DNA of 20,225 bases, from IMG/VR virus record IMGVR_UViG_3300009152_000271, positions 1 through 20,225 of that record. One strand, given 5' to 3'. Both the position numbers and the translations under genes were made by a program. A model generated the notes under the pieces. That model saw nothing but the letters and a program-made list of their open reading frames with translations. It did no database searches and was not told the origin of the DNA. Below, piece after piece: positions 1,240-19,876 of this stretch. Origin of the DNA: a virus. Numbering within the stretch: the first letter of the stretch is position 1; every line of letters begins with the position of its first letter.

Positions 1240-1569
1240 GTGAAATACACCGAGGGTCAAGTTTCGATAGAGCAGATGTTCCCAATTTTCTGTGGGGAGT
1301 GGGAGCGCAAGCAGCCTGAGTTGAAGTTGTGGGCGGTGTGCTTAGCTCAGGCGATAGCTGGGGCGGTTGGGTTGATACGGTGCAACGACCTCAGTCGGTG
1401 GTACCGAGAGGATAGGTACTGGCTCTTTAGGGATAGGCGTACGGTCGTGGGTAGCTGTCATTGGATTTGCGAGGTCCTTGAGATTGACAGGAAGGAGCTA
1501 CTTACCTTCGTATGGAAGAATAGGCATGTGTTGAGGCGTTCCCCTTACCGCCTTAGGAGCGTTAATTGA
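1240..1569 (+). CDS. Probable small terminase subunit / DNA-binding protein
   Basis: The 109-residue protein is rich in W, R and K. It shows the pattern W.VCLAQAI (31-39), then SRWYRED (52-58), then CHWICEVLEIDRKELLTF (73-90), which looks like a helix-turn-helix core of a type often found just before phage large terminase genes. Position directly upstream of the large terminase, with a 4-nt overlap, makes the small terminase (recognition of packaging DNA) the best guess; homology alone does not prove it. The GTG at 1240 is the only start after the in-frame TGA at 1225 that gives full length, and it has no Shine-Dalgarno sequence. ATG at 1276 is an alternative start and also has a poor binding site. 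Confidence 0.6.
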   Translation: MKYTEGQVSIEQMFPIFCGEWERKQPELKLWAVCLAQAIAGAVGLIRCNDLSRWYREDRYWLFRDRRTVVGSCHWICEVLEIDRKELLTFVWKNRHVLRRSPYRLRSVN

Positions 1570-3191
1570 CCGACGACCAGCGGCCAGACTTAGAGATAGA
1601 CGGTATCAAGTGGACTCGGATTCCTGGCGTGAAGTACGGCCATGACTTCTGCCGCTACCTGGCTGACGCTCAAAAGGCCGGTATGACCAATGAGGCGGCG
1701 TTAGCTGAGATGTTCAAGGCTAACCTCTGGTTCCTGGTCTACTTCGGTATGCGCGTTTCTATCGCCAATAACCCGTGGTGGGTCGAGCGGTGCAAGGAGA
1801 TTCAGAACGGACCTCGCTCCCATACCCTAGACCTCTGGGCTCGCGAACACGCCAAGTCTACCCTGATTACTACGGCCAAGACGATTCAGGACATCCTAAT
1901 TAACCCTGAGGAGCGGGTGGGCATCTTCTCGTTCTCGCGCCCTGCGGCCTTGGCGTTCCTTCGCTCGATTAAGTCTATCTTTGAGAACTCTAGTCTCTTA
2001 AAGGCTTGCTTCCCCAGCATTCTCTACGCTGACCCGAGGAGCGAGGCTGAGAAGTGGTCTGAGACGGACGGTCTTATTGTAAAGCGTAAGGGCTTCTACA
2101 AGGAGGCGACGGTTGAGGCTTGGGGCTTGGTTGAGGGTAGCCCGGTCGGTAAGCATTACAGTCTTCGCGTGTACGATGACATCGAGGTACCTGACCTGGT
2201 GAACAGCCCTGAGATGATGGGCAAGTTGAAAGATGCCTTCGACATGAGCCAGAACCTCGGAACTATCGACGGCTCTCACCGGGTTATTGGGACGACCTAT
2301 CACCATGAGGGCTTGCTCAACACGCTCAGGCACAAGGCGACCCAGGACGGGAAGCTCATTTACACATCTCGGATTCGCCCTGCCACCGTGGACGGTACGC
2401 CTAATGGCGCTAGTGCCTACTTGCCCGAGGAGCGGTTAGCGGAGCTAAGGGTGAACCGGCAGATGTTCTTCTCTCAGCAGCTCTTGGACCCTACTCCTCA
2501 GGGAACCGAGAAGCTCGATGCGTCTTTGCTGGTTGAGGTCTCCCCGGCTCAGTTACCCAAGAACCTGTTCAAGTTCATGACGGTAGACCCTGCGGGTGAG
2601 CGTCGGAGCGACAATCGGCAGGGGGATAGCTGGGCCTTAATAGTCTGCGGGATTGAGCCTTACCGCGATGACGTTGGAGCTAGCCGGGTATTCATCCTCG
2701 ACATGATGGTTGAACCGATGACTGAGGCCGAAGCCTTGGACAACGTGGTCAGGATGTACCTCCGTAACGGGATGATTCGGCAGCTTGGCATCGAGAAGGT
2801 CGGCATTAGTACCGCTGAAATCCATATTGCGAAGCACTTACATGCCCGTGGGAAAGCCATTAGTGTCGATAATGGAGGGTTGGTAGTTCTTAGACCCGCC
2901 GGAAGAAACAAGAAGCAGCGCATTGAGGCCGCATTACAGTGGCCTTTGTTACACGGGAAGCTGCATTTGTGTACGTCTGTACCATCGGCTTATCGAGAAA
3001 GATTGAAGTTGGAGATGCAAAAATTCCCTTACTGGCATGATGACGCACTCGATTCGTTGGCATACCAGTACGATCTTTTCCGTGACTTCCGGTTTGGCAA
3101 GTTTTTGACGCAAGAGCAGGAGAGTGAGTGGGACAAGGCGTTCCGCGAGGGCTCTAGCAGTAAGAAGGCTAACTCCTGGCTATACGTATGA
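1566..3191 (+). CDS. terL: Terminase large subunit (packaging ATPase/nuclease)
   Basis: This 541-residue protein powers DNA packaging into the prohead and cuts the concatemer. The ATPase part shows a Walker-A-like AREHAKST (92-99), followed by a strand-helix region (VGIFSFSRP), and a Walker-B-like LRVYDDIE (200-207). The C-terminal RNase-H-like nuclease starts at FMTVDPAG with D341, continues with a second acidic segment at GIEKVG (408-413) and ends with HDDALDSLAY (491-500). Length and motif order are those of a complete large terminase. The start is TTG at 1566, overlapping the upstream stop by 4 nt (TTGA) and preceded by AGGAG at good spacing, which suggests translational coupling with the small subunit. 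No truncation or frameshift is seen. Confidence 0.95.
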   Translation: MTDDQRPDLEIDGIKWTRIPGVKYGHDFCRYLADAQKAGMTNEAALAEMFKANLWFLVYFGMRVSIANNPWWVERCKEIQNGPRSHTLDLWAREHAKSTLITTAKTIQDILINPEERVGIFSFSRPAALAFLRSIKSIFENSSLLKACFPSILYADPRSEAEKWSETDGLIVKRKGFYKEATVEAWGLVEGSPVGKHYSLRVYDDIEVPDLVNSPEMMGKLKDAFDMSQNLGTIDGSHRVIGTTYHHEGLLNTLRHKATQDGKLIYTSRIRPATVDGTPNGASAYLPEERLAELRVNRQMFFSQQLLDPTPQGTEKLDASLLVEVSPAQLPKNLFKFMTVDPAGERRSDNRQGDSWALIVCGIEPYRDDVGASRVFILDMMVEPMTEAEALDNVVRMYLRNGMIRQLGIEKVGISTAEIHIAKHLHARGKAISVDNGGLVVLRPAGRNKKQRIEAALQWPLLHGKLHLCTSVPSAYRERLKLEMQKFPYWHDDALDSLAYQYDLFRDFRFGKFLTQEQESEWDKAFREGSSSKKANSWLYV

Positions 3192-5350
3192 AGTCGCTTA
3201 AAAAGCTCTCTAGGTTCGGAATGGGGCGAGCAGCCCACCACCACATCGTTTATATCAACGAAGAGACCGGCCTTGGCCTTTGTTCTACTGATGCTGGGCA
3301 TACCCATGAGATTATCTTCCAACCGCCGACAGAGCCGCAGATGGACGAGATGGGCAACGAGATTGCTCCTGGCGCTCCTGGCGGGTGGATTGTTGCTCCT
3401 GCCCTAGACGGCCATACCCATGCGATTGAGGAGTACGTCGTTCGGGTAAGCAAAAAAAAAGAAGATGATGCTCAGGTTCTTGCAGAAGTACAGGAACTCT
3501 TTAAGACAGGGAGGGAGCTTGAACGGGAAAGTCTCAAGTCCGCGCAAGAAGCGGAAGACATGTATGCTGGGAAGCATTGGGACGAGACTGAGAAGAATCG
3601 TCTTGAAAGCCTTTCGAGGGCTGCGGTCACGATTAACAAGATAGAGAAGAACGTCGATCAAATAACTGGTATGCAACGCGCCGAGCGAACGGACATTCGC
3701 TATGTGCCGCAGGAAGGGGGTGATCAAAAAGTCGCGGACCTGTTGAACGTCGCTACTAAGCATATTCTGAATCGGTGCTTCTTTACTCGCGAAGAGAGCC
3801 TAGCGTTTGAGGATGCGGTCATTACTGGCCGAGGGTTACTCAACGTGTACGTGAAGTTCGACAACGACCTCCGAGGGGAGATTGTAGTCGAGAAGTTCCC
3901 GTACCTCGATGTGGTGTTTGGACCGCACGAGAAGATAGACCTCTCGGATTGCGAGTACCTCATTAAGCATCGGTGGCTCAGTCGCGCTAAGATTGAGCAG
4001 CTCTGGCCGGATAAGGTTGAGGACATCCAGAAGGATTTCCAAGATTACGTTATAGACCCTAAGTCGAGCGTTCAATACGCCTACGACAACTACTCACACG
4101 GTAGCCCGATACAGACAGTAGGGGATGACCCCCTCGTAAACATCGCTCGCAAAGAGTATCGAGTCCTTGAGTGCTGGCGCAAGATGTACGAGAAGGCATC
4201 GGTTGCAGCAAACGCAGCAGAGGATTTCTACTTCAATGCGTATGGGTGGGATGCCAAAGACCTGAAGTCCGTTCGCACCATACCAGGCTTCTACGTCGTA
4301 GAGCAGAACATCACCAAGATACGGGTCACTAAGGTGGCTGGTGGCGTTGTATTGTCCGATGAGAGCCCTGCCGACCTTCCGGCTGATGACTTCTTCGTTC
4401 TCCCGATTTACGCCAAGAAGCGCGGCTATAAGTTCTGGGGCAAGGTTGAGTCGAGCAAAGACGCTCAGATGTATATCAACAAGAACTACTCAGCGGCTCT
4501 CGACGTTATCAACAAGGTAGCGGCGTACGGCTGGTTCATTGATAGCTCTACGTTCCCTGACAACGAGAAAGAGAAGTTCAAGAAGATTAGTACAAGCCCT
4601 GGATGGGTCATTGAGCTTAATGACGTTACGCGACCTCCTCAGAGAGTCGATGGCGTTAAGTTCCCAGGTGAGCTGATTCAGATGATGCAGGTTGGAGAGC
4701 AGCAAGTTCTCGACCAGATGAACGTCATCATCAATCCTAACGGCGCTAACGAGTCGGGCAATATGTTCGCTCAACGCCGCAACCAGAAACTACAGGGCAG
4801 CGAGTACCTGTTCGATAACCTTGCCTTCGCTAAGCAGAAGCTCGGTCGTCTCTTGGTTAAGCTCATTCAGCGGTACTACACCCCTGACAGAATCCTCCGC
4901 ATCGTTCGTAACGCTAACTCCAAGGCTCCCGTAGACGTAGCAGGACAGCCGCTCGATGAGTTCTCGGATGAGGACATTCTCACTTTGCTTAACACGGCAG
5001 AGCTTGAGTATTACGACGTTGAGGTAACTGAGAGCAACTGGTCGCCGTCAATGAGACTCAGCACCTTCATGCTCCTCAGCGAGATGGCGCAAGCTGGTCA
5101 ACCAATCCCACCGGAAGCTCTCCTTGAGTTCGCCGACATGCCTGACAGCACGAAGCAGAAGCTCATGGAAATGCTGAGCCAGCAGGGACAGGCGCAAGCT
5201 AGCGCAGACCAAGCGAAGGCTGATGCAGAGATTCAAAAGACTCTCATCGCGCAGGGGCAGATTCCCCCTGAAGTCGCGCAAAGATTTCTCCAAGCACCAC
5301 AAGAAGATTTACCCCCGAACGAGGCCAATCAAGGTCCGGGGATAATGTAG
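3188..5350 (+). CDS. Portal protein, P22 type, with His-rich N-terminal extension
   Basis: The 720-residue protein is close to the P22 portal in size. From about residue 95 it has the family pattern: an acidic helix with DMYAGKHWDE, AAVTINKIEKNVDQITGMQR, EDAVITGRGLLNVYV, then FGPHEKIDLSDCEYLIKHRW, and a long helical C-terminal part ending in a Q-rich tail. It forms the dodecameric ring through which DNA passes and to which terminase and tail bind. The first 95 residues are unusual: HHH at 17-19, GHTHEI at 37-42 and GHTHAI at 75-80, followed by KKK (89-91) encoded by nine consecutive A. This extension is not part of the usual core and may bind metal. The ATG at 3188 overlaps the terminase stop (ATGA). 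Confidence 0.92.
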   Translation: MKSLKKLSRFGMGRAAHHHIVYINEETGLGLCSTDAGHTHEIIFQPPTEPQMDEMGNEIAPGAPGGWIVAPALDGHTHAIEEYVVRVSKKKEDDAQVLAEVQELFKTGRELERESLKSAQEAEDMYAGKHWDETEKNRLESLSRAAVTINKIEKNVDQITGMQRAERTDIRYVPQEGGDQKVADLLNVATKHILNRCFFTREESLAFEDAVITGRGLLNVYVKFDNDLRGEIVVEKFPYLDVVFGPHEKIDLSDCEYLIKHRWLSRAKIEQLWPDKVEDIQKDFQDYVIDPKSSVQYAYDNYSHGSPIQTVGDDPLVNIARKEYRVLECWRKMYEKASVAANAAEDFYFNAYGWDAKDLKSVRTIPGFYVVEQNITKIRVTKVAGGVVLSDESPADLPADDFFVLPIYAKKRGYKFWGKVESSKDAQMYINKNYSAALDVINKVAAYGWFIDSSTFPDNEKEKFKKISTSPGWVIELNDVTRPPQRVDGVKFPGELIQMMQVGEQQVLDQMNVIINPNGANESGNMFAQRRNQKLQGSEYLFDNLAFAKQKLGRLLVKLIQRYYTPDRILRIVRNANSKAPVDVAGQPLDEFSDEDILTLLNTAELEYYDVEVTESNWSPSMRLSTFMLLSEMAQAGQPIPPEALLEFADMPDSTKQKLMEMLSQQGQAQASADQAKADAEIQKTLIAQGQIPPEVAQRFLQAPQEDLPPNEANQGPGIM
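3452..3460 (+). other. A9 homopolymer inside the portal gene
   Basis: Nine A encode Lys89-Lys91 at the junction between the His-rich extension and the portal core. Polymerase slippage is common on such runs. One added A leads to a stop codon within a few codons (K-K-K-R-R-stop), releasing a roughly 95-residue N-terminal product. This is a possible slippage site; nothing shows it is used. Confidence 0.35.
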
Positions 5351-5358
5351 GGTGATGG

Positions 5359-6243
5359 ATGGAAAATAGTGATGTAACCACAGCAGAAGCTACTCAAGAG
5401 GGAACGAGTTCTGAGTACGTGGATCTGCCGGATGCTTCCGATGAAGACATCTCCGTGTTCCTTGAGAACGCAGAGCGGTCGGAGTCAGAAGCCCCAGTAG
5501 AAACGCCGCAAGAGAACCCCGCACAACAACAAACTAAAGCTGAGCCTCCGAAGGAAGAGCCAGAGGTCGAGCAGGAGGCAATCTCCAAGCAAGACTTTGA
5601 AGCTTTGAAGCGGAAGCTCGAAGGACAGGAACTCCTAATCAAGCGTCGTACAAGCGAGATAGGGGAGATTAAGAGACAGCTCCAACAGTTCATACAGAAC
5701 ACAGCCCAGAACCTCGATGAGAAGTTCTACGAGTCACCGACTCAAGCCTTGCAACAAGCAAGACAACTTGAGATGGCTCAACAGAAACTCCAAGAGGCAG
5801 AGGCAGAGGAGCAGTCCCTTACGAACGCGCATCAGGCGCAAGTTCTATTAGCACATCATGTTGGCGGGGATATTGACCTTGAGGCTATCGGAGAGTCTTT
5901 ACTCTCAGACGGTATGCCCCAAGAGTTCGTACAGCAGTTCGTACGCAACCCTTATCAAGCCGCGCTACCAGAGACACTAATCCAACTTGCTAAGCGAGCA
6001 ACCGCTGAAAGACAGGTCCGGCAGATGCAGGACGCACTACAGCAGCTTGTTCCTTACACACAGAAGCTCTTGGAGGAGCGCAAGCAACTCCCTCAGCATG
6101 TGTTGAAGAATGTCAGTTCAGCTCTCCGTCAGTCCCCACAGGTAACTGGTTCTGCGGGTGGTACTGGACAGCTAGGTGGAAACCGAGCTGTTGATCCGTC
6201 TTTGATGAGCGATGCCGAGTTAGCGGAGTTCCTGAAAAGTTAA
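5359..6243 (+). CDS. Scaffolding-like head assembly protein
   Basis: The 294-residue protein has an acidic, low-complexity N-terminus (E, S, P and Q rich, to about residue 70). A long Q/E/K-rich coiled-coil region (about 75-160) follows, then a mixed helical part with repeated Q runs, and a Gly-rich linker before a short acidic end ELAEFLKS. Composition and position between portal and major capsid gene are those of phage scaffolding proteins, which guide coat assembly and then leave the head. No protease motif is seen. The ATG at 5359 follows the portal stop by 8 nt; an out-of-frame ATG at 5355 sits beside it. The binding site is weak (GGGTGA). Scaffold function is inferred from composition and gene order. 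Confidence 0.75.
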   Translation: MENSDVTTAEATQEGTSSEYVDLPDASDEDISVFLENAERSESEAPVETPQENPAQQQTKAEPPKEEPEVEQEAISKQDFEALKRKLEGQELLIKRRTSEIGEIKRQLQQFIQNTAQNLDEKFYESPTQALQQARQLEMAQQKLQEAEAEEQSLTNAHQAQVLLAHHVGGDIDLEAIGESLLSDGMPQEFVQQFVRNPYQAALPETLIQLAKRATAERQVRQMQDALQQLVPYTQKLLEERKQLPQHVLKNVSSALRQSPQVTGSAGGTGQLGGNRAVDPSLMSDAELAEFLKS

Positions 6244-6262
6244 TACTTTTTAGGGATTGAAC

Positions 6263-7306
6263 ATGGCAAAGACCTCGTTCAGTACTTCTGATGCCTCAAC
6301 CAAAAAGGCGTGGGAAGAGAAATTGTTTCGTGACTCTGTAAAGGAGTCTTATTTTAGCAAGTTCGTTAGCTCAGGCGCGGACTCAATCGTAACCGAGAAA
6401 ACCCAGCTCTCCAAAGATAAGGGTGACGAGGTAACGATTGGTCTTCGCATGAAGCTCAGTGGCGCTGGTGTTACTGAAGGACAGGTTCTTGAGGGGAATG
6501 AGGAAAAGCTCAGCACCTACTCAATGAAGCTGACCTTGAAGCAGTATCGACATGCAGTTCGTGATGACGGAGCTATGAGCCGTAAGCGAGTTATGTTCGA
6601 TATTTCTTCCGAGTCTGAGGCTAGCCTCAAGGATTGGATGTCAGAGAAGGTTGACCAACTTCATTTCGATGAACTCGGAATCGGCGCTGGCTCAACTGCA
6701 AACCCATCGAAGATCTTCTACAAGACCTCCTCTGGAACACTTGCAACTGGCACCGCTGCAACCGCTAAGTCCGCTCTCACGGCGGCTGATTCTAAGCTTA
6801 CGCTTAACATGATCAGCTTCCTCAAGACCTGGGCTTTGACTGGTGGCGCTCGTTCGTACATCCCGATTCGTCCAGTTAAGGTTGAAGGTAAGCCATACTA
6901 CGTGCTTCTCACTCACCCTGACGCTGTTTACGATCTTCGGGTTACCTCGGAGTTCCAACAGGCTATGCGTGAGGCTGAAGTCCGTGGAAAGGAGAACCCT
7001 CTCTTCACTGGCGCAGTGGCAATCTGGGACGGTGTAGTAGTTCATACGCATGAAAATGCGGCTGTAGCTGCCGATGCTGGATCAGGATCGAACGTACCGT
7101 GGGTTAAGTCTGTACTCCTTGGCGCACAAGCTCTTTGCTGGGCTTGGGGTAAGCGTCCTGAGGTTGTTCAGAAGACCTTCGATTACGACAATGAGGAAGG
7201 CTATGCAATCGGGATGATTGCTGGCGTTAAGAAGTCTGTATTCAACTCGCTTGATTACGGCTCTCTTGGCGTTTACCTCTCTCGTACTAACGTGTCTGGA
7301 AGCTAA
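6263..7306 (+). CDS. Major capsid protein, N4-gp56 family
   Basis: The 347-residue product has the pattern of the N4 gp56 type capsid protein. It begins with KKAWEEKLFRDSVKESYFSK, then KGDEVTIGLRMKLSG, a central LTLKQYRHAVRDDGAMS, DWMSEKVDQLHFDEL, the mid-domain GKPYYVLLTHPDAVYDLR, FTGAVAIWDGVVVHTHE, and a C-terminal VLLGAQALCWAWGKRPE. Length is normal for the family. It builds the icosahedral shell. I chose ATG at 6263 because AGGGA sits 6 nt upstream; TTG at 6257 would add two residues and overlaps the binding site. The gene follows the scaffold by 19 nt and its codon use resembles a highly expressed gene. Confidence 0.92.
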   Translation: MAKTSFSTSDASTKKAWEEKLFRDSVKESYFSKFVSSGADSIVTEKTQLSKDKGDEVTIGLRMKLSGAGVTEGQVLEGNEEKLSTYSMKLTLKQYRHAVRDDGAMSRKRVMFDISSESEASLKDWMSEKVDQLHFDELGIGAGSTANPSKIFYKTSSGTLATGTAATAKSALTAADSKLTLNMISFLKTWALTGGARSYIPIRPVKVEGKPYYVLLTHPDAVYDLRVTSEFQQAMREAEVRGKENPLFTGAVAIWDGVVVHTHENAAVAADAGSGSNVPWVKSVLLGAQALCWAWGKRPEVVQKTFDYDNEEGYAIGMIAGVKKSVFNSLDYGSLGVYLSRTNVSGS

Positions 7307-7788: not shown

Positions 7789-8466
7789 ATGGCTGCATCT
7801 GACTACGACTTCAACGTAACCCGTAACGAGATTATCGAACGGGCTTATCGCATTATCGGGAAGTTTTCTCTTGGGGACGTTCTCTCCGCTGAGATGTACC
7901 AACAGGGCATTATCGCCCTGAACTCCATGATTAAGAGCTGGCAGGGTAAGCATGTGTTCCTTTGGACCATTAAGGAGTTCACCCAGACCCTTACCGTGGG
8001 ACAGGCTAGCTACTCCCTGGCTAGTACGGACCCAGCCGTCTACGCGATTGACCGGGCCTACCTCCGCTACGACAACATAGACCACCCTTGCGATGTGGCA
8101 TCCTACCGGCAGTACGTTGACATCCCCGACAAGACTAGCAAGGGCGACCCGACTCTCGTGGCGTTAAATGGGCAGATGAGCCCTACGCTGTATGTGTGGC
8201 CGGTTCCTCAGCAGACTAGAACGCTCTATTACACGGGCATAGTTAAGCTCAAAGACTTTGACACGGCGGCTGGTAACTCTGACTTCCCGGTACGGTACAT
8301 CGAGGCCATTACATTCGGACTAGCCCACAAGCTATCGTACGAGTACGGCCTTCCAATCCAACAGTCGAGAGAGCTTGAGCGACAGTTCCAAGCAGAATTT
8401 GGCGAAGCTAAGAGCGGAGAGCGCGAGAGGGCTGAATACGAGTTTTGCGAAGGAGCGTGTAAGTAA
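7789..8466 (+). CDS. Head-to-tail connector, P22 gp4-like
   Basis: The 225-residue protein shows the pattern of the P22 gp4 tail accessory family. An N-terminal helix TRNEIIERAYRIIGK is followed by ALNSMIKSWQGKHVFLWTIK and a strand region QTLTVGQASYSLA. A central SPTLYVWPVP follows, then a C-terminal helix with RYIEAITFGLAHKLSYEYGLP. In P22 this protein binds under the portal and starts neck assembly. It is longer than the P22 protein (166 residues), mainly in the middle, as is common in relatives. Its C-terminus is charged (E/R/K) with a pair of cysteines near the end. The ATG at 7789 is preceded by GAGG, and the stop overlaps the next start by 1 nt. Confidence 0.85.
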   Translation: MAASDYDFNVTRNEIIERAYRIIGKFSLGDVLSAEMYQQGIIALNSMIKSWQGKHVFLWTIKEFTQTLTVGQASYSLASTDPAVYAIDRAYLRYDNIDHPCDVASYRQYVDIPDKTSKGDPTLVALNGQMSPTLYVWPVPQQTRTLYYTGIVKLKDFDTAAGNSDFPVRYIEAITFGLAHKLSYEYGLPIQQSRELERQFQAEFGEAKSGERERAEYEFCEGACK

Positions 8467-10808
8467 TGGCAACGGCGGTACAGGTAGAATCCATCTGGAA
8501 CGGGCTCACTGACAACAGTGGGCAGCCATTAGCCGCAGGAAAGGTGTACACCTACGCCGCTGGAACCACTACGCCAATATCTCTTTTTACCTCTAGCGAT
8601 AAGAGTACCTCGGCAACCAACCCTCTCATCCTCGATGGCAACGGCAAGGCTCAGGTATGGGCAGATGGGCGGTATAAGTTCGTGGTTAAGACTGCGGCTG
8701 ATGTAACGCTCTATACTCTGGACAACCTTCTCTACGGATTCGACGATACGTCGGTCCTCCTTGGCGGTATCTCTACTGGCTCGGCCAATGCTCAGACGGT
8801 TAGTGTTCCGGCTACTGTAGAGAGCTACGTCAACGGTCAGCGAATTACTTTCATCGCTGGGTTTACAAATACTGGTGCTACAACCTTGCGGTTTAATGCA
8901 CTTTCAAGCGTCAACATCGTAAAGGGGCCTACCCCTAGCAGCCTTCAGGCAGGGGACTTGCTTGCCGGTCAGCTTTACAGCTGCACTTACTACGGCGGCT
9001 CTTTCTACCTTGAGAGTACTCCTACTCCGGCTGATGTGCAGCGGTCACGGTCGCAGGTTCTTAGTAGCGTCGGTGGTATCAATACCATTATTGGAGCCCT
9101 CACTCCTGCGCTCACCTCCTATGAGGCTGGGCAGGTCTTCCGTTTCAAAGCAGCTAACGCCAGCACAGCGGCAGTCACTCTCAACATCAACGGTCTTGGA
9201 GCCCAAGCCGTTCAGCGATACGGAGTCGCACTCGTCGGTGGCGAGATCCAGGCTAACGACATGGTTGAGGTCGTATATGACGGCACTCAGTTCCAGTTGG
9301 TTAATGCGGTTCCTAATCCGCTTTTTATTGATCGAACAAACAATGAGATTGGCATAGGGACCACCGCTCCCCTTACTCGACTTACCGTAGCTGGTACAGG
9401 GCAAAATGGAGCGCCATCAGATTCAGGGGACAAACTTGCAACTATCCGTGTTTCATCAACTGCTGGTGGTGGAAATGATGGCGGTCAAGTTGAGTTTGGT
9501 GCTGGATATGGCACATATACGCAAAGCTATTTCAGCGCCATTAAAGGACTGCTTAGCAACATAACCGGCAACACATTAGGTCATCTTGCCTTTTATACTC
9601 GAAATGGCACCTCAGACACTTCGCTAACAGAGCGGATGAGAATTAACGGTACTGGTGGTGCTGTCGGCATTGGCAATTCCGATCCTCAGTATGCTGCTGT
9701 AATTGGAAACGGCGTTGGACAAAAAATTGTAAGTATCTTTGGAGGGCTCTCAGGGGCAAATGAGGGCGCTGCGCTTTTCATCACTGGCACTACCGCCACT
9801 AATCATGCCGCTGGGTTTGGGCACTACTCAGCTATACTTGGCGGCGCTGCCGATGCTACTCCGACATTATACACAGGCGGAAATTTGCGATTTAATTCCA
9901 GCACTACGGTAGTCGGCGTATTAAACGGCACTGGGCTTTCGATTGGAACTGGAACTGTTGCGGCTTACCCGCTTGAGGTTCAGGCTAATGCAGGAAACGC
10001 CGTTGGGCTAAGCACTAAAGGTAGGGCCTCAGATAATATCGGCGTGGCCTTGTTTACAAATAACGCTGGAACCGAAACAGCAAGAATCCAGGCTGCCCCC
10101 ACATCGCTCTCTATTGCTAAAGATGGCAATAACCCGATTGCTCTCAGCACCAACGGCTCTGAGCGTGTGCGAGTCACTGGCACTGGGCTAGTTGGAATCG
10201 GAACCACTGGGCCATCGGAGGCGCTACACGTATATCGAGCCTCTGGAAATGTCGAAGTGCTTTCAGAGTCGAATTCTCTCGCTAATGGGGAAATGGCTTC
10301 GGTTCACGCGCTTGGTGGACCTAGAACCGCACGTATCATGGCCTATAAGCACTCGGGAATCGCAAACCCATGCGGGGCGCTCAATCTTGACCAGCAGGAC
10401 AACACGCCTACTTACGTTTGGGCTGACGACTCTACAGTTATGAGAGTATCCAGCACAATTACTCACATTGGAACTACAAGCGGAACGGTTATCGGTACGC
10501 AGACCTCCGATGCTAGGTTGAAGGATATTAGCGCAGACCCGTTCCCGTACGGATTGAGTGACGTTCTTGCCATTGAGCCAGTTGCCTTTACATTTACAAA
10601 CGATCCCGACCAGGTTGAGCGCATAGGATTTAGCGCCCAGCAGGTGCAGCCGATTGTCGCAGAGGCGGTATACGACACAAATGAGCAGATAGCCGGGGAG
10701 CCACAGGGCGCACCAACTAAGCTAGCGATGGACTACACGGCACTTGTTCCTGTTCTGGTTAAGGCAATTCAACAGCTTGAAGCGCGAGTAGCGGCATTGG
10801 AGGCGTAG
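8466..10808 (+). CDS. Tail fibre/spike with C-terminal Peptidase S74 chaperone domain
   Basis: The 780-residue protein begins with a head/tail-binding module seen in many podovirus fibres (GQPLAAGKVYTYAAGTTTP at 19-37, NPLILDGNGKAQVW at 52-65). Two copies of an 80-residue beta domain follow (about 119-187 and 218-286; shared GQ...F.A...T..TL..N and Y.G..F.L pattern). Next come repeated IGIGTT, VGIGTTGP-type beta turns typical of fibre shafts. The end (681-780) is a Peptidase S74 intramolecular chaperone: SDARLKDIS with the Ser-Asp cleavage site at 681-682, IGFSAQQVQPIVAEAV, then a coiled coil. This domain helps trimerisation and then cuts itself off. AGGAG precedes the ATG. Its place between the two neck genes is unusual. 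Confidence 0.88.
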   Translation: MATAVQVESIWNGLTDNSGQPLAAGKVYTYAAGTTTPISLFTSSDKSTSATNPLILDGNGKAQVWADGRYKFVVKTAADVTLYTLDNLLYGFDDTSVLLGGISTGSANAQTVSVPATVESYVNGQRITFIAGFTNTGATTLRFNALSSVNIVKGPTPSSLQAGDLLAGQLYSCTYYGGSFYLESTPTPADVQRSRSQVLSSVGGINTIIGALTPALTSYEAGQVFRFKAANASTAAVTLNINGLGAQAVQRYGVALVGGEIQANDMVEVVYDGTQFQLVNAVPNPLFIDRTNNEIGIGTTAPLTRLTVAGTGQNGAPSDSGDKLATIRVSSTAGGGNDGGQVEFGAGYGTYTQSYFSAIKGLLSNITGNTLGHLAFYTRNGTSDTSLTERMRINGTGGAVGIGNSDPQYAAVIGNGVGQKIVSIFGGLSGANEGAALFITGTTATNHAAGFGHYSAILGGAADATPTLYTGGNLRFNSSTTVVGVLNGTGLSIGTGTVAAYPLEVQANAGNAVGLSTKGRASDNIGVALFTNNAGTETARIQAAPTSLSIAKDGNNPIALSTNGSERVRVTGTGLVGIGTTGPSEALHVYRASGNVEVLSESNSLANGEMASVHALGGPRTARIMAYKHSGIANPCGALNLDQQDNTPTYVWADDSTVMRVSSTITHIGTTSGTVIGTQTSDARLKDISADPFPYGLSDVLAIEPVAFTFTNDPDQVERIGFSAQQVQPIVAEAVYDTNEQIAGEPQGAPTKLAMDYTALVPVLVKAIQQLEARVAALEA

Positions 10809-10811
10809 TCC

Positions 10812-12236
10812 ATGCCAACGGTAAAGCTCCCCATCTTTGAAGCGACAATGAAGGGCGTTGATGGTATTGAGCTTACCGATGAGAACTTCTCGCTTATTGA
10901 CGGATACCGCACACTGAATGGTGGCACCGTTAATCGTCCGGGCTCTAAGGCTAAGTTTGTCGCAAGCTCCGCTAGCGGCTTTGGCTTCGATGGAATGTTC
11001 TACTGGGCTGAGAAGGATTGCGTGATTGCAGTCGGCGGCGGTGAGGTCTATCAACTTACCTACGTTTCCGATACGCCTGTCATAACATCGCGCACAGGGG
11101 GAACTCCTCTGTTGGGGCAGAATACTCCTACCTCTATTGCGGTGGACGGCACTAACTATTATGCGGCTAATGGTGGCAGTATCGTCTATGGAACTCCGAC
11201 CGGCGCTGCGGCTTATCTTACTGACCCTGATGCCCCAACCGGAGTCACTCACCTTGACTACATAGATGGCTACATCCTGGCTATCAACCCCTCAACGAAT
11301 AGATTCTATTGGTCTGACGTGAATGCCGGGACTAGCTGGAACTCGCTATCCTTCGCCAGTGCAGCCGGGAGCCCCGACCTAGTTTGCTCGTTGAAGGTTC
11401 TTAATCGCGAAGTTTACTTATTCGGACAGAGGTCGATTGAAATCTGGGAGAACGACGGCTCTACTCCCTTTGCTCGTATCCCTGGTGGGTTCATTCAGTC
11501 GGGATGCTCAGCGCCTTATGCGGTGTTGCAAGATGAGAACTCTCTTTACTGGATTGACGAGAATCGTCGCCTTGTTCGCTTCGCTGGTAAGTCCGTAGAG
11601 CGACTAAGCACTAAGTTCGACAAAGAGCTTCAGGGCCTTTCAAGTGTCGCTGACGGCGTGGCGATGAAAGTACAGATAGACGGATATGTCTTCTTTATAT
11701 TCACGTTCAAGAAAGCTAATCGCACCCTGGTATTCAATCAGACGACCGAAGATTGGTGTGAGTTTGGTCAGTGGATTTATGCCAACGCTGCGTATGAGCG
11801 ATGGGTAGGGAACTGCTACTGCTACGCTGAAAAGTGGGGGCTACATCTCATTGGCCGCAAAGACACTCTCACCATCTCTGAGCTGAGCCGCGATTATCCG
11901 ACGGACGATTCCAGCACTATCCGACTAGCACGAGTCACAGGACACATCGACCACGGCACTAGCAAGATTAAACAATGCAACGAGGTGCGTTTCAGGGCTA
12001 AGCGAGGGCAGGGGCTATCGACTAGAACTCCTACGCTCATGATTCGCTACAAGATTGATAATACCAACTGGTCCAATATCAAGGAGTTCAGTCTTGGCAA
12101 TATCGGCGAGTACAACCTGGTCTTGCGCGACCTTAGGCGCAATCAGTATCGAACCAAGCAGTACGAGTTTGCGGCTACGGATGCAGTAGACGTAGTATTC
12201 TCCCAGGCTGAGGAGGACATTGAGGTTCTTCGATGA
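10812..12236 (+). CDS. Tail hub / DNA stabilisation protein, P22 gp10-like
   Basis: The 474-residue protein has almost the same length as P22 gp10 (472) and the same general pattern. The N-terminus is MPTVKLPIFEAT, followed by NGGTVNRPGS. The beta-propeller-like middle includes TSIAVDGTNYYAANGG, LDYIDGYILAINP, LVCSLKVLNREVYLFGQRS and YWIDENRRLVRFAG. The C-terminal part is rich in charged strands. In P22, gp10 plugs below gp4 and keeps packaged DNA inside the head. A GGAGG binding site with 8-nt spacing overlaps the end of the fibre gene, 3 nt upstream. The last codons overlap the next gene (ATGA). No damage is seen. Confidence 0.87.
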   Translation: MPTVKLPIFEATMKGVDGIELTDENFSLIDGYRTLNGGTVNRPGSKAKFVASSASGFGFDGMFYWAEKDCVIAVGGGEVYQLTYVSDTPVITSRTGGTPLLGQNTPTSIAVDGTNYYAANGGSIVYGTPTGAAAYLTDPDAPTGVTHLDYIDGYILAINPSTNRFYWSDVNAGTSWNSLSFASAAGSPDLVCSLKVLNREVYLFGQRSIEIWENDGSTPFARIPGGFIQSGCSAPYAVLQDENSLYWIDENRRLVRFAGKSVERLSTKFDKELQGLSSVADGVAMKVQIDGYVFFIFTFKKANRTLVFNQTTEDWCEFGQWIYANAAYERWVGNCYCYAEKWGLHLIGRKDTLTISELSRDYPTDDSSTIRLARVTGHIDHGTSKIKQCNEVRFRAKRGQGLSTRTPTLMIRYKIDNTNWSNIKEFSLGNIGEYNLVLRDLRRNQYRTKQYEFAATDAVDVVFSQAEEDIEVLR

Positions 12237-12514
12237 GTATCCGTAGGCCACCACGACAGTCCACCGATGGATTACAGGACAGAAAGTGGAAGGAGCAAGC
12301 GTTCTATGATGCTAATCGTCCCGTTGGTGCTACCGGCGCTATGGGTCCTCCTGGTCCTCAGGGTCCTGCTGGCCCTACTGGTGCTATTGGTCCTCAAGGC
12401 CCTTCGGGGGCTGGGTTTCCAAGTGGAGGACTTGTCGGTCAATTCTTAGTAAAAAACAGCAACTCTGATTTTGATACTACTTGGAGTGACAATATGGATG
12501 GAGGAAACTTCTAG
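12233..12514 (+). CDS. Mini collagen-like fibre protein
   Basis: This 93-residue protein has three parts: a charged head of about 31 residues (RRPPRQ, RKWKEQ), ten Gly-X-Y triplets (32-61, many GP), and a short tail GGLVGQFLVKNSNSDFDTTW. The tail resembles the link found after collagen-like stretches in phage fibres. Collagen-like repeats form trimeric rods. By size and position it may be a short adaptor or shaft between the gp10-like hub and the following fibre proteins. The ATG overlaps the gp10-like stop by 4 nt, and its own stop overlaps the next start by 1 nt, so the genes are probably translated in a coupled way. Function is inferred. Confidence 0.75.
   Translation: MSIRRPPRQSTDGLQDRKWKEQAFYDANRPVGATGAMGPPGPQGPAGPTGAIGPQGPSGAGFPSGGLVGQFLVKNSNSDFDTTWSDNMDGGNF
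12326..12415 (+). repeat. Ten collagen-type Gly-X-Y codon triplets
   Basis: Ninety bases encode ten consecutive Gly-X-Y units, mostly Gly-Pro-X, with 9-nt periodicity (GGT/GGC then CCT). Such in-frame repeats expand and shrink by slippage, so length may vary between relatives. Confidence 0.85.
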
Positions 12515-16056: not shown

Positions 16057-16278
16057 ATGGTGAAGTCCGATAACTACAAGCAGCTCATGGAGTCCCTGAA
16101 CCGGCTATTTGACGTTCTGCCAGACATGGAGGACGACGAAGCCGAGTCAGAGGGTAAGGCTCGTTCAATCACCATTGTGACCATAGGCAAGGGCCAAGGG
16201 ACCAAGATCCCTAAGGCTAACGCGCTCAAGAATCCAATCAAGAAAACCAAACAAGACGAGGAAGAAGACGATGGCTAA
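16057..16278 (+). CDS. Small charged protein, unknown
   Basis: This 73-residue protein is not recognised. It has an N-terminal helix with NYKQLMESLNRLFDVLPDM, a short acidic patch (EDDEAESE), a strand-like SITIVTIGKGQG, a lysine-rich stretch and an acidic end (DEEEDDG). A good AGGA binding site lies 7 nt before the ATG. The next gene overlaps its last 8 nt. It opens the run of probable internal virion genes and codon use is again like the main part of the window. It may be a small virion or chaperone protein; this is position only. Confidence 0.6.
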   Translation: MVKSDNYKQLMESLNRLFDVLPDMEDDEAESEGKARSITIVTIGKGQGTKIPKANALKNPIKKTKQDEEEDDG

Positions 16279-16831
16279 GGGACAACAAGATGGCATGGTA
16301 AGAACGGCTATTCCTCGGGCTAAGCCTAGCAACAGTATGCAGCGTGTAAGCCCAGGCGTGTATCGAGACGGCTCTGGAAAGCTAGTTCGCTCGCGAGATG
16401 GTCAAGCTCCGACAGGTGGAGGCATGACAGACATGGTAGACCGTACCCAGAGGGCAGCTCCAGGGGGAAGCAAGCCTGGTCAATGGAGTGGCTCTACCAA
16501 CGCTACCCCTAGCGAGCGTTATCTCGGGCCAACGCCAGGCACAGAATCAAGCCGACAAGCTAATGACGCAGCAGACATGGCGGGGCGACTTGCCCGTGAC
16601 TTTATGGGGAACGCAGGGGCTCAGCCGTCAAACATCGACGATCTAATGAGCTGGATAGGGCAACTAACCCAGCAGCAGCCTTCCCGTGGTCGTGGCATGG
16701 GCTCTGGCTTCGCAGACCTCTTGCAGTCTGGTATAAAGATTCCCCCAGCGCCAAGGCCGATTACTGACATCCCAGGGCTCGAAGGAGTGCAGATGGGCAA
16801 CTCTATCGCTGACATGCTTAGGAGGCGCTAA
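16271..16831 (+). CDS. Low-complexity probable virion protein with SPG-YR motif
   Basis: The 186-residue protein is rich in G, S, P, Q and R and largely without hydrophobic core, so it is probably disordered. It contains RVSPGVYRDGSGKLVRSRDG (25-44), a motif that recurs in the protein encoded at 18677. A helix about 98-112 (DAADMAGRLARDFMG) and a short C-terminal helix ending ADMLRRR are the only structured-looking parts. The binding site is GAGGAAG. It overlaps both neighbours by a few bases, so it belongs to the same transcription unit. By context it may be an internal head protein that is ejected with DNA. I do not recognise a family. Confidence 0.6.
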   Translation: MAKGQQDGMVRTAIPRAKPSNSMQRVSPGVYRDGSGKLVRSRDGQAPTGGGMTDMVDRTQRAAPGGSKPGQWSGSTNATPSERYLGPTPGTESSRQANDAADMAGRLARDFMGNAGAQPSNIDDLMSWIGQLTQQQPSRGRGMGSGFADLLQSGIKIPPAPRPITDIPGLEGVQMGNSIADMLRRR

Positions 16832-17505
16832 TGAGCTGGCTAAGCGATGGCCTAGATTGGCTGGGCGGTCAGTTTGACTCTGGCTCTACCTGGGGCAGTG
16901 ATGCAGGAGGCTGGTTCGATAAGAACTTTAGTGGTTACTATCAGACCCCTGGAATATCTGGCGAGAAGGGTAGCGGAGGTTCAGGTTTGGACCTTGGGAA
17001 CATCCTTAATGCTGGCCGCAAGATATACAACCTATGGGACATAAACGATGCCCGTAGCAGTTCTCGTGGTCAGTTCAATGACATCCTCGGCAAGATGGAG
17101 GCAGATAAAGCCGCCTACGATGCTCAGATGCGGGAGTACAACGAGAGGGCAGCGGCAAGTTCTAGGGCAGCGCGACGGAAGACTGATGAGGCTAGGCGTA
17201 AGGCTGAGGCTCAGGCGCTAAAACAGCAGCAAGCGGCGTACAAGCAGATGATCGCTATGTACCAGCCCTATGCTAATGCGGTTAAGACCATCACTCCTAA
17301 GGCGACTAAGAACTATACTCAGTACCTTGATACGACGGCTCTCCTTAACCAGTACCTTACGCCAACCGTGATGAAGGGTATGCAGCAGCCGTTCCAGTCA
17401 GCGTACACCGAGAATGTTCCACAGGCCCCAAGTTCAATCCCAGTTCCTCAGGGGGAGGCTATCTCATTCCCTTCACTTGAAGAGGTTCTAAAGAGGGGCG
17501 GTTAA
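16831..17505 (+). CDS. Probable internal virion (ejection) protein, coiled coil
   Basis: The 224-residue protein has a W- and G-rich N-terminus (MSWLSDGLDWLGGQFDSG), a short hinge, then a long charged helix from about 65 to 150 with DARSSSRGQFNDILGKMEAD, AAASSRAARRKTDEARRK and a Q/K-rich part, typical of a coiled coil. A P-rich C-terminus with conserved-looking SFPSLEEVLKRGG ends the protein. Phages of this kind carry three or so such proteins that leave the head and build a channel for DNA entry. The ATG overlaps the previous stop by 1 nt and has a very strong AGGAGG. Function is inferred from composition and gene order. Confidence 0.65.
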   Translation: MSWLSDGLDWLGGQFDSGSTWGSDAGGWFDKNFSGYYQTPGISGEKGSGGSGLDLGNILNAGRKIYNLWDINDARSSSRGQFNDILGKMEADKAAYDAQMREYNERAAASSRAARRKTDEARRKAEAQALKQQQAAYKQMIAMYQPYANAVKTITPKATKNYTQYLDTTALLNQYLTPTVMKGMQQPFQSAYTENVPQAPSSIPVPQGEAISFPSLEEVLKRGG

Positions 17506-18690
17506 GTGCAGAACTTCTCTAACCTAGATCCTCAGCAGCGTCAGCTACTACAGATGCTCTTTCTTCAGATGTTGAGGGAGAGGGGTATTCAGGTTCCTCA
17601 GGGGCCTCAGGGAGCGTCACAAGCGCCGCAATCATCATCGCTGAATCAGTTCTTTGATTACGCCAAGAAGGGCAAGCAGCTCTACGACGATGGGCAGAAG
17701 CTCTATAACGCCGGAACGAGCCTCGTCAACTATTTCTCTAAGCCAGTCTACACCGAGGCTACGCAAGCCGCGTGGAATCAAGCAGCAGGGCAAGCTAGTC
17801 AAGCAGCATGGAACGCAGGAGCGGACGCAGCTACGCAAAAGGCTGGAGGCCAGCTTGTAGCTGATAATGCCTCGTCTAGCTTAGGCAACGTCGCTGGTGG
17901 CCTTGCTGGTGCTTACATGGCTTACAAGGGCGGCGACCAAGTTCTTAACGCAAATAGAATCGGAGGCGTGAGAGGACGGCAAGCTGGTGGTTTTGGCGGT
18001 TTGCAAGCAGGGCTTGGGGCAGGACTGGCGATTAACGCTCTTGGATTTGCTCTCGGTCCTGTTGGATGGGCGGCCCTCATTGGTGGTAGCGCCCTTGCTG
18101 GCGGTCTAGCTGGTAGTCGGCTCGGCGATAAGGACAAGTGGAAGACTGAGGGCAAGCGCCTCGGCAAACTGATCGACAAGGGCATTGTCATTCCTGAGCA
18201 GCTTCAAGGCGCTCGATGGATAGGACAGGGGAGAAAGACCAAGGATCTTATCAACCCGTACCTCCCTCAAGACTTCGTAGGCGAGACTCCCCAGTACGGA
18301 TGGACCAACAACAAGTTCGCCAACTCTCGCAACAAGGCTGACCTTACGGCTAAAGACATCTGGGGCTACTCAGCCTTCTTCGATAAGTTCGGCAACGACT
18401 GGCTCGGCAAGATGAACGAGAAACAGAGGGAGGCTATAGCCAATAAAGCTCTCCAGCGCGGCGCTGTGAACGAGCATCACGGCACCATAGACATCAACTG
18501 GAGCCCAGAGTTAGAGGCTGACATAGCGTCTATCAGAGGGCCTAACATGATACCGAAGGCGCAGCCAGGAAGAACCCAACCGGGAACGCCGCAAGCAGCT
18601 CCGGCTCCGCAACCACAGACTACTCCAACCGTTCAGGGTAATCAGGTAAACCGCAAAGGGATCTTGGGACGACTATATGGCAACAGGTAA
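17506..18690 (+). CDS. Probable ejection protein with Gly/Ala-rich membrane-active segment
   Basis: The 394-residue protein begins with a Q/L-rich helix. Two Gly/Ala-rich hydrophobic stretches follow (about 125-141 and 163-206, including ALGPVGWAALIGGSALAGG), similar to glycine-zipper regions that insert in membranes. The part after residue 210 is charged and globular-looking, with DIWGYSAFFDKFGNDWLGKM, then KALQRGAVNEHHGTIDINW, a pattern I associate with phage virion proteins. The C-terminus is P/Q-rich linker. This suits an ejected protein crossing the cell envelope. The GTG start directly follows the previous stop, with GAGGGG upstream. The next gene overlaps its end by 14 nt. No signal peptide. 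Confidence 0.65.
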   Translation: MQNFSNLDPQQRQLLQMLFLQMLRERGIQVPQGPQGASQAPQSSSLNQFFDYAKKGKQLYDDGQKLYNAGTSLVNYFSKPVYTEATQAAWNQAAGQASQAAWNAGADAATQKAGGQLVADNASSSLGNVAGGLAGAYMAYKGGDQVLNANRIGGVRGRQAGGFGGLQAGLGAGLAINALGFALGPVGWAALIGGSALAGGLAGSRLGDKDKWKTEGKRLGKLIDKGIVIPEQLQGARWIGQGRKTKDLINPYLPQDFVGETPQYGWTNNKFANSRNKADLTAKDIWGYSAFFDKFGNDWLGKMNEKQREAIANKALQRGAVNEHHGTIDINWSPELEADIASIRGPNMIPKAQPGRTQPGTPQAAPAPQPQTTPTVQGNQVNRKGILGRLYGNR

Positions 18691-19876
18691 CAGCTACAAC
18701 TACGTCTCCCCTGGATTGTATCGCTCTCCCACTGGACAGGTGGTTCGTCGTAGCCAGATGAACAAGGCTCTTGGCACCACGCCTCAGACAACACCCCAGG
18801 GTAACTCTCCCTATGCAACCAGCTTCAGAAACGCTGGTAAGGGGTTCTATCGTGGCGCAGACGGAAATCTTATTAGTGGCAACCAGATGACCACTTCTAC
18901 CAATGCCTTCAACAATCTTGCGAATCGCTTCGCTGGCATGAAGCAGACAGATGCTCAGTATAATCAGATAGGGCAACGCTTGAGGGACTTGGGCACTCGG
19001 TTCGGCCTTGACTACAACAAGGTGCTTGGAAACAACTGGCAGCCCAACTACGCCGATGTAAAGCCGAAACCAGCTCCAAAGCTCCCAAAGCAAATCGGCG
19101 CAGCTAAAATTATGCCAACGACAAACGCCCCTCAAGCTCCGCAAGCTGCGGCATCGACCGGCCAAGGCTTCAACTACGAGCAGTCCCCAATGACCAAGGC
19201 GTTGGTCGATGCCATGAAGGGTGGATTGAACACTATGCAAGCGTACGAGCCTAAGTTCTACGAGGGCTCTCCGTTGTACCAGTTCCAGAAGCAGCAAGGA
19301 CAGAAGGACCTTGAGAAGCTAATGGCTGCGCGAGGACTCACGGGCTCTGGCGCTGAGGTTCAGGCTAACAGCGATTTCCTTAGCAAGCTCGGTGCAGAAG
19401 AGTCGGAGAAGGCTCGGCAGTATGCAGTCGATGCGGCTAACCGACAGACTCAGGGTATGCAGTTCCTTGCTAATTTCGATCAGCAAGAGCGACAGGCTCA
19501 GCTTGATCAGTGGAACAGGAATACAGACCGCCGTGTCAACATGCAGGAGTTTGATGCTACCAGACGGGATGCGAGAGCTGCGTCGATGCAGAACTTCCTC
19601 ACAAGTATCTTAGGTATGCAAGCTCAGAATCCTATTGCGGGACAAGCTCAATCTGGTCTTAACAACATGACCGATCTCACTCGGGCCATCAGCGACATGG
19701 CAGCTCGTTCAAGGGCTAACGATTACACGCGCTCCTACGGCGGTGGCGGCGGGACTCCTCCAACTCCTCCTCCGTCAAGAGCGGGAGAGATTGCAAACAT
19801 CAATTCCAATTATGGAGATCGCGCCGGTAACAATGATCTGTGGAACGGCATCTTTAGTATCTTTGGGGGAATGTAA
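18677..19876 (+). CDS. Probable internal virion protein with repeated SPG-YR motifs
   Basis: The 399-residue protein has YVSPGLYRSPTGQVVRR near its start and GKGFYRGADGNLISG at about 53-67, both like the motif of the 186-residue protein upstream. A P-rich linker follows. The part with FYEGSPLYQFQKQQGQKDLE, then MAARGLTGSGAEVQ, is a pattern I have seen in phage internal proteins just before the end of the structural operon. A long charged coiled coil comes next, then a flexible GGGGGTPPTPPPS linker and a short end IFSIFGGM. The 14-nt overlap with the previous gene is typical for this operon. Role in DNA ejection is inferred. Confidence 0.65.
   Translation: MATGNSYNYVSPGLYRSPTGQVVRRSQMNKALGTTPQTTPQGNSPYATSFRNAGKGFYRGADGNLISGNQMTTSTNAFNNLANRFAGMKQTDAQYNQIGQRLRDLGTRFGLDYNKVLGNNWQPNYADVKPKPAPKLPKQIGAAKIMPTTNAPQAPQAAASTGQGFNYEQSPMTKALVDAMKGGLNTMQAYEPKFYEGSPLYQFQKQQGQKDLEKLMAARGLTGSGAEVQANSDFLSKLGAEESEKARQYAVDAANRQTQGMQFLANFDQQERQAQLDQWNRNTDRRVNMQEFDATRRDARAASMQNFLTSILGMQAQNPIAGQAQSGLNNMTDLTRAISDMAARSRANDYTRSYGGGGGTPPTPPPSRAGEIANINSNYGDRAGNNDLWNGIFSIFGGM

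Follow-up and report, generated by a model that had tools for sequence, protein, structure and literature searches.

A conserved six-histidine extension, probably metal-binding, at the N-terminus of portal proteins in a clade of uncultured viruses of bacteria

Portal proteins work as rings and are among the best-studied viral machines, yet our literature searches on portals combined with HxH motifs or metal binding found no metal-binding portal domain. The P22-like portals (PF16510; P22, Sf6, GP4, Pan3, PaP3, and SU10) share with the portal described here the same core from residue about 90 in both sequence and fold (Z 16–22 for many), and most solved portals start near where this core starts. 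In the SU10 portal, residues 8–44 are described as a helix that lines the capsid from within, with Lys3 and Lys5 touching DNA (PMC9509320). Histidine pairs of the HxH type are described in other phage proteins. In R-pyocin fibres, T4 gp37, and P2 gpV, the HxH from each of three chains builds an octahedral six-His iron site, which is thought to aid folding (PMC6116203), and an HxH iron-binding region has been reported in the tail needle of Sf14 (PMC11821841).

We analyzed the 20,225-base virus record IMGVR_UViG_3300009152_000271 (positions 1 to 20,225; hereafter, the window), whose portal protein carries an extension in front of a P22-like core (Table 1). P22_portal (PF16510) matched the core at residues 103–685 with 303.9 bits against a curated cut-off of 26.1, which assigns the protein to this family, and residues 1–88 precede the portion recognized by both Pfam and PHROGs. 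The stop codon of the terminase large subunit gene overlaps the portal ATG, and comparison of the open reading frame (ORF) following the portal gene with Pfam and PHROGs yielded no significant family. A sequence-only reading of this DNA had described a portal extension of about 90 residues containing HHH, GHTHEI, and GHTHAI, and these strings indeed occupy residues 17–19, 37–42, and 75–80. Both of the GHTH repeats that it had counted are present; however, because HHH also counts as an HxH, the extension has three HxH motifs rather than two. The same reading saw two related halves and suggested a duplication. The column-shuffle score for motifs 2 versus 3 (z = 3.0) lends this slight support, with the resemblance residing mostly in the preceding Gly and the following Ile or Val, and the scores were 2.8 for motifs 1 versus 2 and 0.0 for motifs 1 versus 3. 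A simple duplication of two halves was not well supported.

Table 1. Coordinates of the portal gene, its neighbors, and features of the N-terminal extension in the window
Feature	Position	Strand	Evidence
Terminase large subunit	1566..3191	+	phrog_38, E 1.9e-40
Portal protein, 720 aa, with N-terminal extension	3188..5350	+	PF16510, E 3e-90; phrog_156 portal match from residue 90
N-terminal extension, residues 1–88, predicted small all-β domain with three HxH motifs	3188..3451	+	AF2; alignments of 21 and 59 representatives
HxH motif 1, HHH, residues 17–19 (H17 and H19 conserved; H18 variable)	3236..3244	+	H17 58/60, H19 60/60
Cys32	3281..3283	+	Invariant in near relatives (alignment A4, 13 rows) and L069 only
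HxH motif 2, HTH, residues 38–40	3299..3307	+	H38 59/60, H40 59/60
HxH motif 3, HTH, residues 76–78	3413..3421	+	H76 60/60, H78 60/60
Opening helix of the portal core, residues 94–126, corresponding to the wing helix at the N-terminus of solved portals	3467..3565	+	AF2 full model and VIA alignment
Putative scaffolding protein	5359..6243	+	Position between portal and capsid genes
Major capsid protein	6257..7306	+	PF13252, E 4.4e-51; phrog_334, E 1.5e-74

Relatives were collected by a final scan of viral contigs with three patterns, all located in the portal core and none in the extension. The count rests on the best 80 of 140 relatives, and their ranking on the whole query may favor extension-bearing portals. 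Of these 80 loci, 72 had a readable N-terminus and gave 59 representatives that were non-redundant at 90% identity, with a median pairwise identity of 36% and a minimum of 27%. Loci truncated at the 5' end (L017, L025, L083, L099, L101, L123, and L140) and L141, in which nothing upstream of query residue 148 was homologous, were left out; L044 and L137 are incomplete portals, yet were included among the 59. Exactly three HxH motifs were found in the extension of 56 of the 59 representatives from the best 80 of 140 relatives, and the portal cores of the representatives contained 5 HxH in 33,728 residues. L080, which lies outside the best 80 and hence outside this count, also carries three HxH. 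The other three representatives retained two HxH (L085 and L105, one ligand missing in each) or one (L119, two ligands missing); they may be degraded, or five or four ligands may suffice. These losses look late, because they lie within the clade and because L085 and L119 are sisters (support 90). In both sisters the leading His of motif 1 is gone, and L119 also lost the second His of motif 2, making the pair a natural test of the ligand number needed.

The alignment of the 59 representatives with the window (60 rows; the window portal is 97% identical to L015) showed that the six His columns rank within the first 13 of 720 columns, alongside the invariant core residues N150, G161, P174, E176, and D179. 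The next-best columns of the extension were S33 (55/60), G30 (50/60), and G65 (50/60). Homologous portals with a conserved extension and variable histidines, the pattern that the sequence-only reading had set against its own proposal, were not what we observed: each of the six His is present in 58–60 of 60 rows, and it is the middle residue of HxH that varies. This middle residue has 17 identities; therefore, the His pairs, not the GHTH string, are under selection. The residue before HxH was mostly Gly (91/168), and the second residue after it was mostly Val, Ile, or Leu (137/168). The linkers vary in length while the ligand His are constant, with spacings of 19–38 between motifs 1 and 2 and 15–112 between motifs 2 and 3. 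In the L129 extension (L129:3590-4072), 112 Pro/Gly/Met-rich residues separate motifs 2 and 3, and all six His are retained.

Six viral contigs showed 67–95% identity to the window portal over the first 119 residues. In close relatives, HHH is replaced by HSH or HGH and GHTH by GHAH with the outer His unchanged; in further relatives, GHTH becomes GHIH or GHVH. Overall, motif 1 is often HSH, HGH, HYH, or HTH. Searching with a DNA pattern that covers motifs 1 and 2 gave 22 stretches, comprising 14 portals of the extension-bearing family (three previously found) and eight unrelated frames. One portal retrieved in this way, L069, is 49% identical over 655 residues and retains all ligands. L080, found by profile search, is about 36% identical and has the His pairs HYH/HTH/HTH and no Cys; its terminase looks different by eye. 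L081–L088 were found by scanning with a pattern for the extension and another for the core, the latter matching all of them. Across 10 relatives, pN of the extension was 0.03–0.21 versus a pS of 0.52–0.77, and both CAT and CAC are used at every one of the six His positions. The low pN, the high pS, and the use of both His codons support translation of the extension, and the comparison of these sequences indicates that the six-His extension is under purifying selection. Cys32 was considered as a seventh ligand and dropped; it is absent in L080–L088, and a Cys at any position occurs in the extension of 14/56 only.

AF2 prediction on 99 residues, based on an alignment of 21 extensions, reached a mean pLDDT of 88, with residues 1–80 at 91–97. 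Strands were placed at residues 2–7, 20–24, 29–32, 42–45, 58–60, 66–69, and 80–82, and every HxH directly precedes one of them (20–24, 42–45, and 80–82). The full-length AF2 model reproduced the first six strands at a mean pLDDT of only 67. The extension is thus confidently predicted to fold as a small all-β domain. Comparison of the extension model with structure libraries gave best values of E 2.3 for Foldseek against the PDB, Z 2.3 for VIA (rmsd 4.9 over 69), and E 0.21 for the viral predictions of BFVD; the missing match would not in itself make the predicted fold new.

VIA aligned the full model, whose mean pLDDT is only 67, with the GP4 portal at Z 22.5 (rmsd 11.0 over 438) and with the P22 portal 9jg6 at Z 19.8 (rmsd 9.7 over 428). 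Model residues 86–101 onward paired with near-N-terminal chain residues of the solved portals. Because the extension precedes the usual N-terminus of solved portals, and given the location of the SU10 N-terminal helix, it is expected by homology at the rim of the wing, on the in-head side, and not facing the terminase. The sequence-only reading thought that it could face terminase or scaffold; the expected placement at the in-head rim speaks against the terminase, whereas the scaffold remains, together with the capsid and packaged DNA, among the likelier neighbors.

The iron site of trimeric fibres and spikes (T4 gp37, P2 gpV, phi92, and R-pyocin fibres) has in common with the extension the HxH pairs and a total of six His (PMC6116203). 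In the fibres, one HxH per chain is contributed by three chains, whereas the window portal has three HxH in a single chain and so departs from the fibre arrangement. By analogy, the extension would most likely reproduce within a single chain the Fe-HxH site known from trimeric tail fibres. GHxH-like repeats are also shared with the Pfam family PTR (PF12789, phage tail repeat like), which was matched in 1/21 members (E up to 0.1) and 4/43 members (E up to 1). Its curated cut-off of 27 bits was not reached, the best score being 26.8 in the L142 extension and that of the window 9.8. YmaF (PF12788) gave weak matches in 1/21 and 3/43 members, with a best E of 0.021 among the 64 scanned; L143, at 14.6 bits, was far below the cut-off of 27, and the window record had no match up to E 10. 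Among the matches listed for the 21 members against Pfam, NCBIfam, and PHROG and for 43 more against Pfam, none was above a curated cut-off. PTR, which one member missed by so little, is the nearest family, and the extension may be a distant cousin of the phage HxH repeats.

Two other candidates were rejected. phrog_33235 (E 0.15 in the window) was not found again when 21 members were scanned. The GHTH loops of SAKe proteins (PDB 8pjs and 7pvp), which we take to be designed kelch-like propellers, were scored by the extension profile, but only through a repeated DGHTH loop; each stretch alone had an i-Evalue of 44–77 with the A9 profile, and the resemblance was regarded as a motif coincidence.

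Judging from their pattern of conservation, the six paired His are probably best explained as metal ligands. We assign a probability of about 0.6 to the reading that the portal wing bears, fused to its outer rim within the head, a compact domain in which six His hold one metal. Metal binding by the extension, as proposed by the sequence-only reading, is therefore probable given the six conserved His, but not in the form of two GHTH repeats. The three HxH pairs would converge so that the six His of one chain hold one divalent metal, presumably with octahedral geometry, Fe(II) or Zn(II) being the likeliest candidates. Such an ion would replace a hydrophobic core and lock the small domain on each subunit; a dodecameric ring would have 12 of these domains. 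The putative role of the locked domain would be structural, through contacts with the scaffold, with the inside of the capsid, or with the DNA that is packaged first. A more specific version, in which every portal subunit across the clade bears a single-chain, pseudo-threefold six-His iron site and 12 ions per ring make portal-vertex assembly, maturation, or genome release metal-dependent, is tentative, and we consider it possible but doubtful.

The metal could also occupy at least two distinct sites, or lie between neighboring subunits, stapling the ring and making oligomerization metal-dependent. The six His do form three pairs with linkers of very unequal length, and portals function as rings; however, the monomer AF2 prediction is already confident, and one shared site is favored because the three pairs are kept jointly in 56 of the 59 representatives, which makes an arrangement in several sites unlikely. 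Rather less probable again is that the His are not ligands and owe their conservation to phosphorylation, to switching by protonation, or to hydrogen bonds inside the fold. A strict HxH pair whose middle residue is free, repeated three times, is a classic ligand pattern, and we know of no non-metal use of three paired His, although the portal model of HFTV1, an archaeal tailed virus, includes putative phosphohistidines (PMC12494034), which favors this possibility.

For the HxH iron of marine phage tail fibres, a Trojan-horse role has been proposed (PMC11705849). A corresponding virion iron store that is brought into the host and is not structural would be very improbable here, because the in-head position would conceal the metal from host iron receptors. 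The notion of a functionless, chance His-rich tail draws on the window extension alone, with only seven His in 90 residues, and is scarcely credible. When these 90 residues were shuffled with their own seven His, at least three HxH arose in 0.6% of 20,000 shuffles, and shuffling of the whole portal protein gave at least three in 0/5,000; shuffles of all extensions reached three HxH in 0.3%. A chance origin is refuted by the purifying selection and by the retention of three HxH across the representatives.

As far as could be searched, the six-His extension is a new feature for portal proteins. It must matter to the phages carrying it, because it is kept at pairwise identities down to 27% and its ligands are as conserved as the portal core. 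A metal-binding extension predicts that portal assembly is sensitive to metal or chelator, and the extension is an 85-residue unit that can be expressed and tested alone. Moreover, its presence on a portal suggests that use of the HxH device extends beyond tail tips.

The extension is shared across a large group of uncultured bacterial viruses. In a FastTree phylogeny of core sequences with the extension removed, a branch of support 100 separated 61 extension-bearing portals from 17 others; the outgroup was chosen by us, long branches were flagged, and L137 (broken frame) was left out. The 17 outgroup portals, comprising L028, L030, L033–L036, L089, and L090 (21–28% identity) and the deposited phage portals L045–L053, had no HxH in their first 150 residues, and among the P22-like portals examined the extension occurred only in the clade of the window. 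All bearers are in one clade, and on this tree gain or loss of the extension is one change. A tblastn search of phage records with the portal reached about 28% identity at most, and the listed matches begin at or after query residue 72; therefore, no cultured member of the clade is among them. Searches against cultured phages with window residues 1–119 (six records at E 3–8) and with the compact extension of L133, which is among the shortest (four records at E 8–10), gave matches taken as chance.

In bacterial genomes, the close-relative profile A4 found nothing and the wider profile A6 gave two matches. The domain was present in 1/395 and 1/392 genomes, each being the seed itself; therefore, it is rare outside viruses. 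The bacterial MAG contigs L091 and L092 both carry the six His. The sequence-only reading had suggested looking for stand-alone proteins with the GHTH repeat next to other terminases. In the 155 loci around these portals (1.2 Mb, six frames), no stand-alone protein with the domain turned up; the only non-portal matches were three weak ones at E 0.58 to 6.5. A GHVH protein of L087 and L137, presumably a metallophosphoesterase judging from its sequence, was regarded as a motif coincidence.

Elsewhere in the window, an ORF resembling HNH endonucleases (PF14279 HNH_5, 19 bits, below the cut-off of 27.5) and containing an HHHH string occupies positions 36-509 on the minus strand, opposite to the structural genes. 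None of four successive ORFs at 16271-19876 (+; 186, 224, 394, and 399 aa) has a PHROG match at E 0.001; judged by position, they are possibly internal virion or ejection proteins. A short ORF at 12233-12514 (+) contains a collagen-like GxY run (PF01391, E 0.0016, below cut-off) and is followed by fibre-like ORFs. A 780-aa tail fibre-like protein with a Peptidase_S74 chaperone domain at its C-terminus is encoded at 8466-10808 (+), flanked by a phrog_12985 ORF (unknown function) and the gene for a head closure protein (phrog_578).
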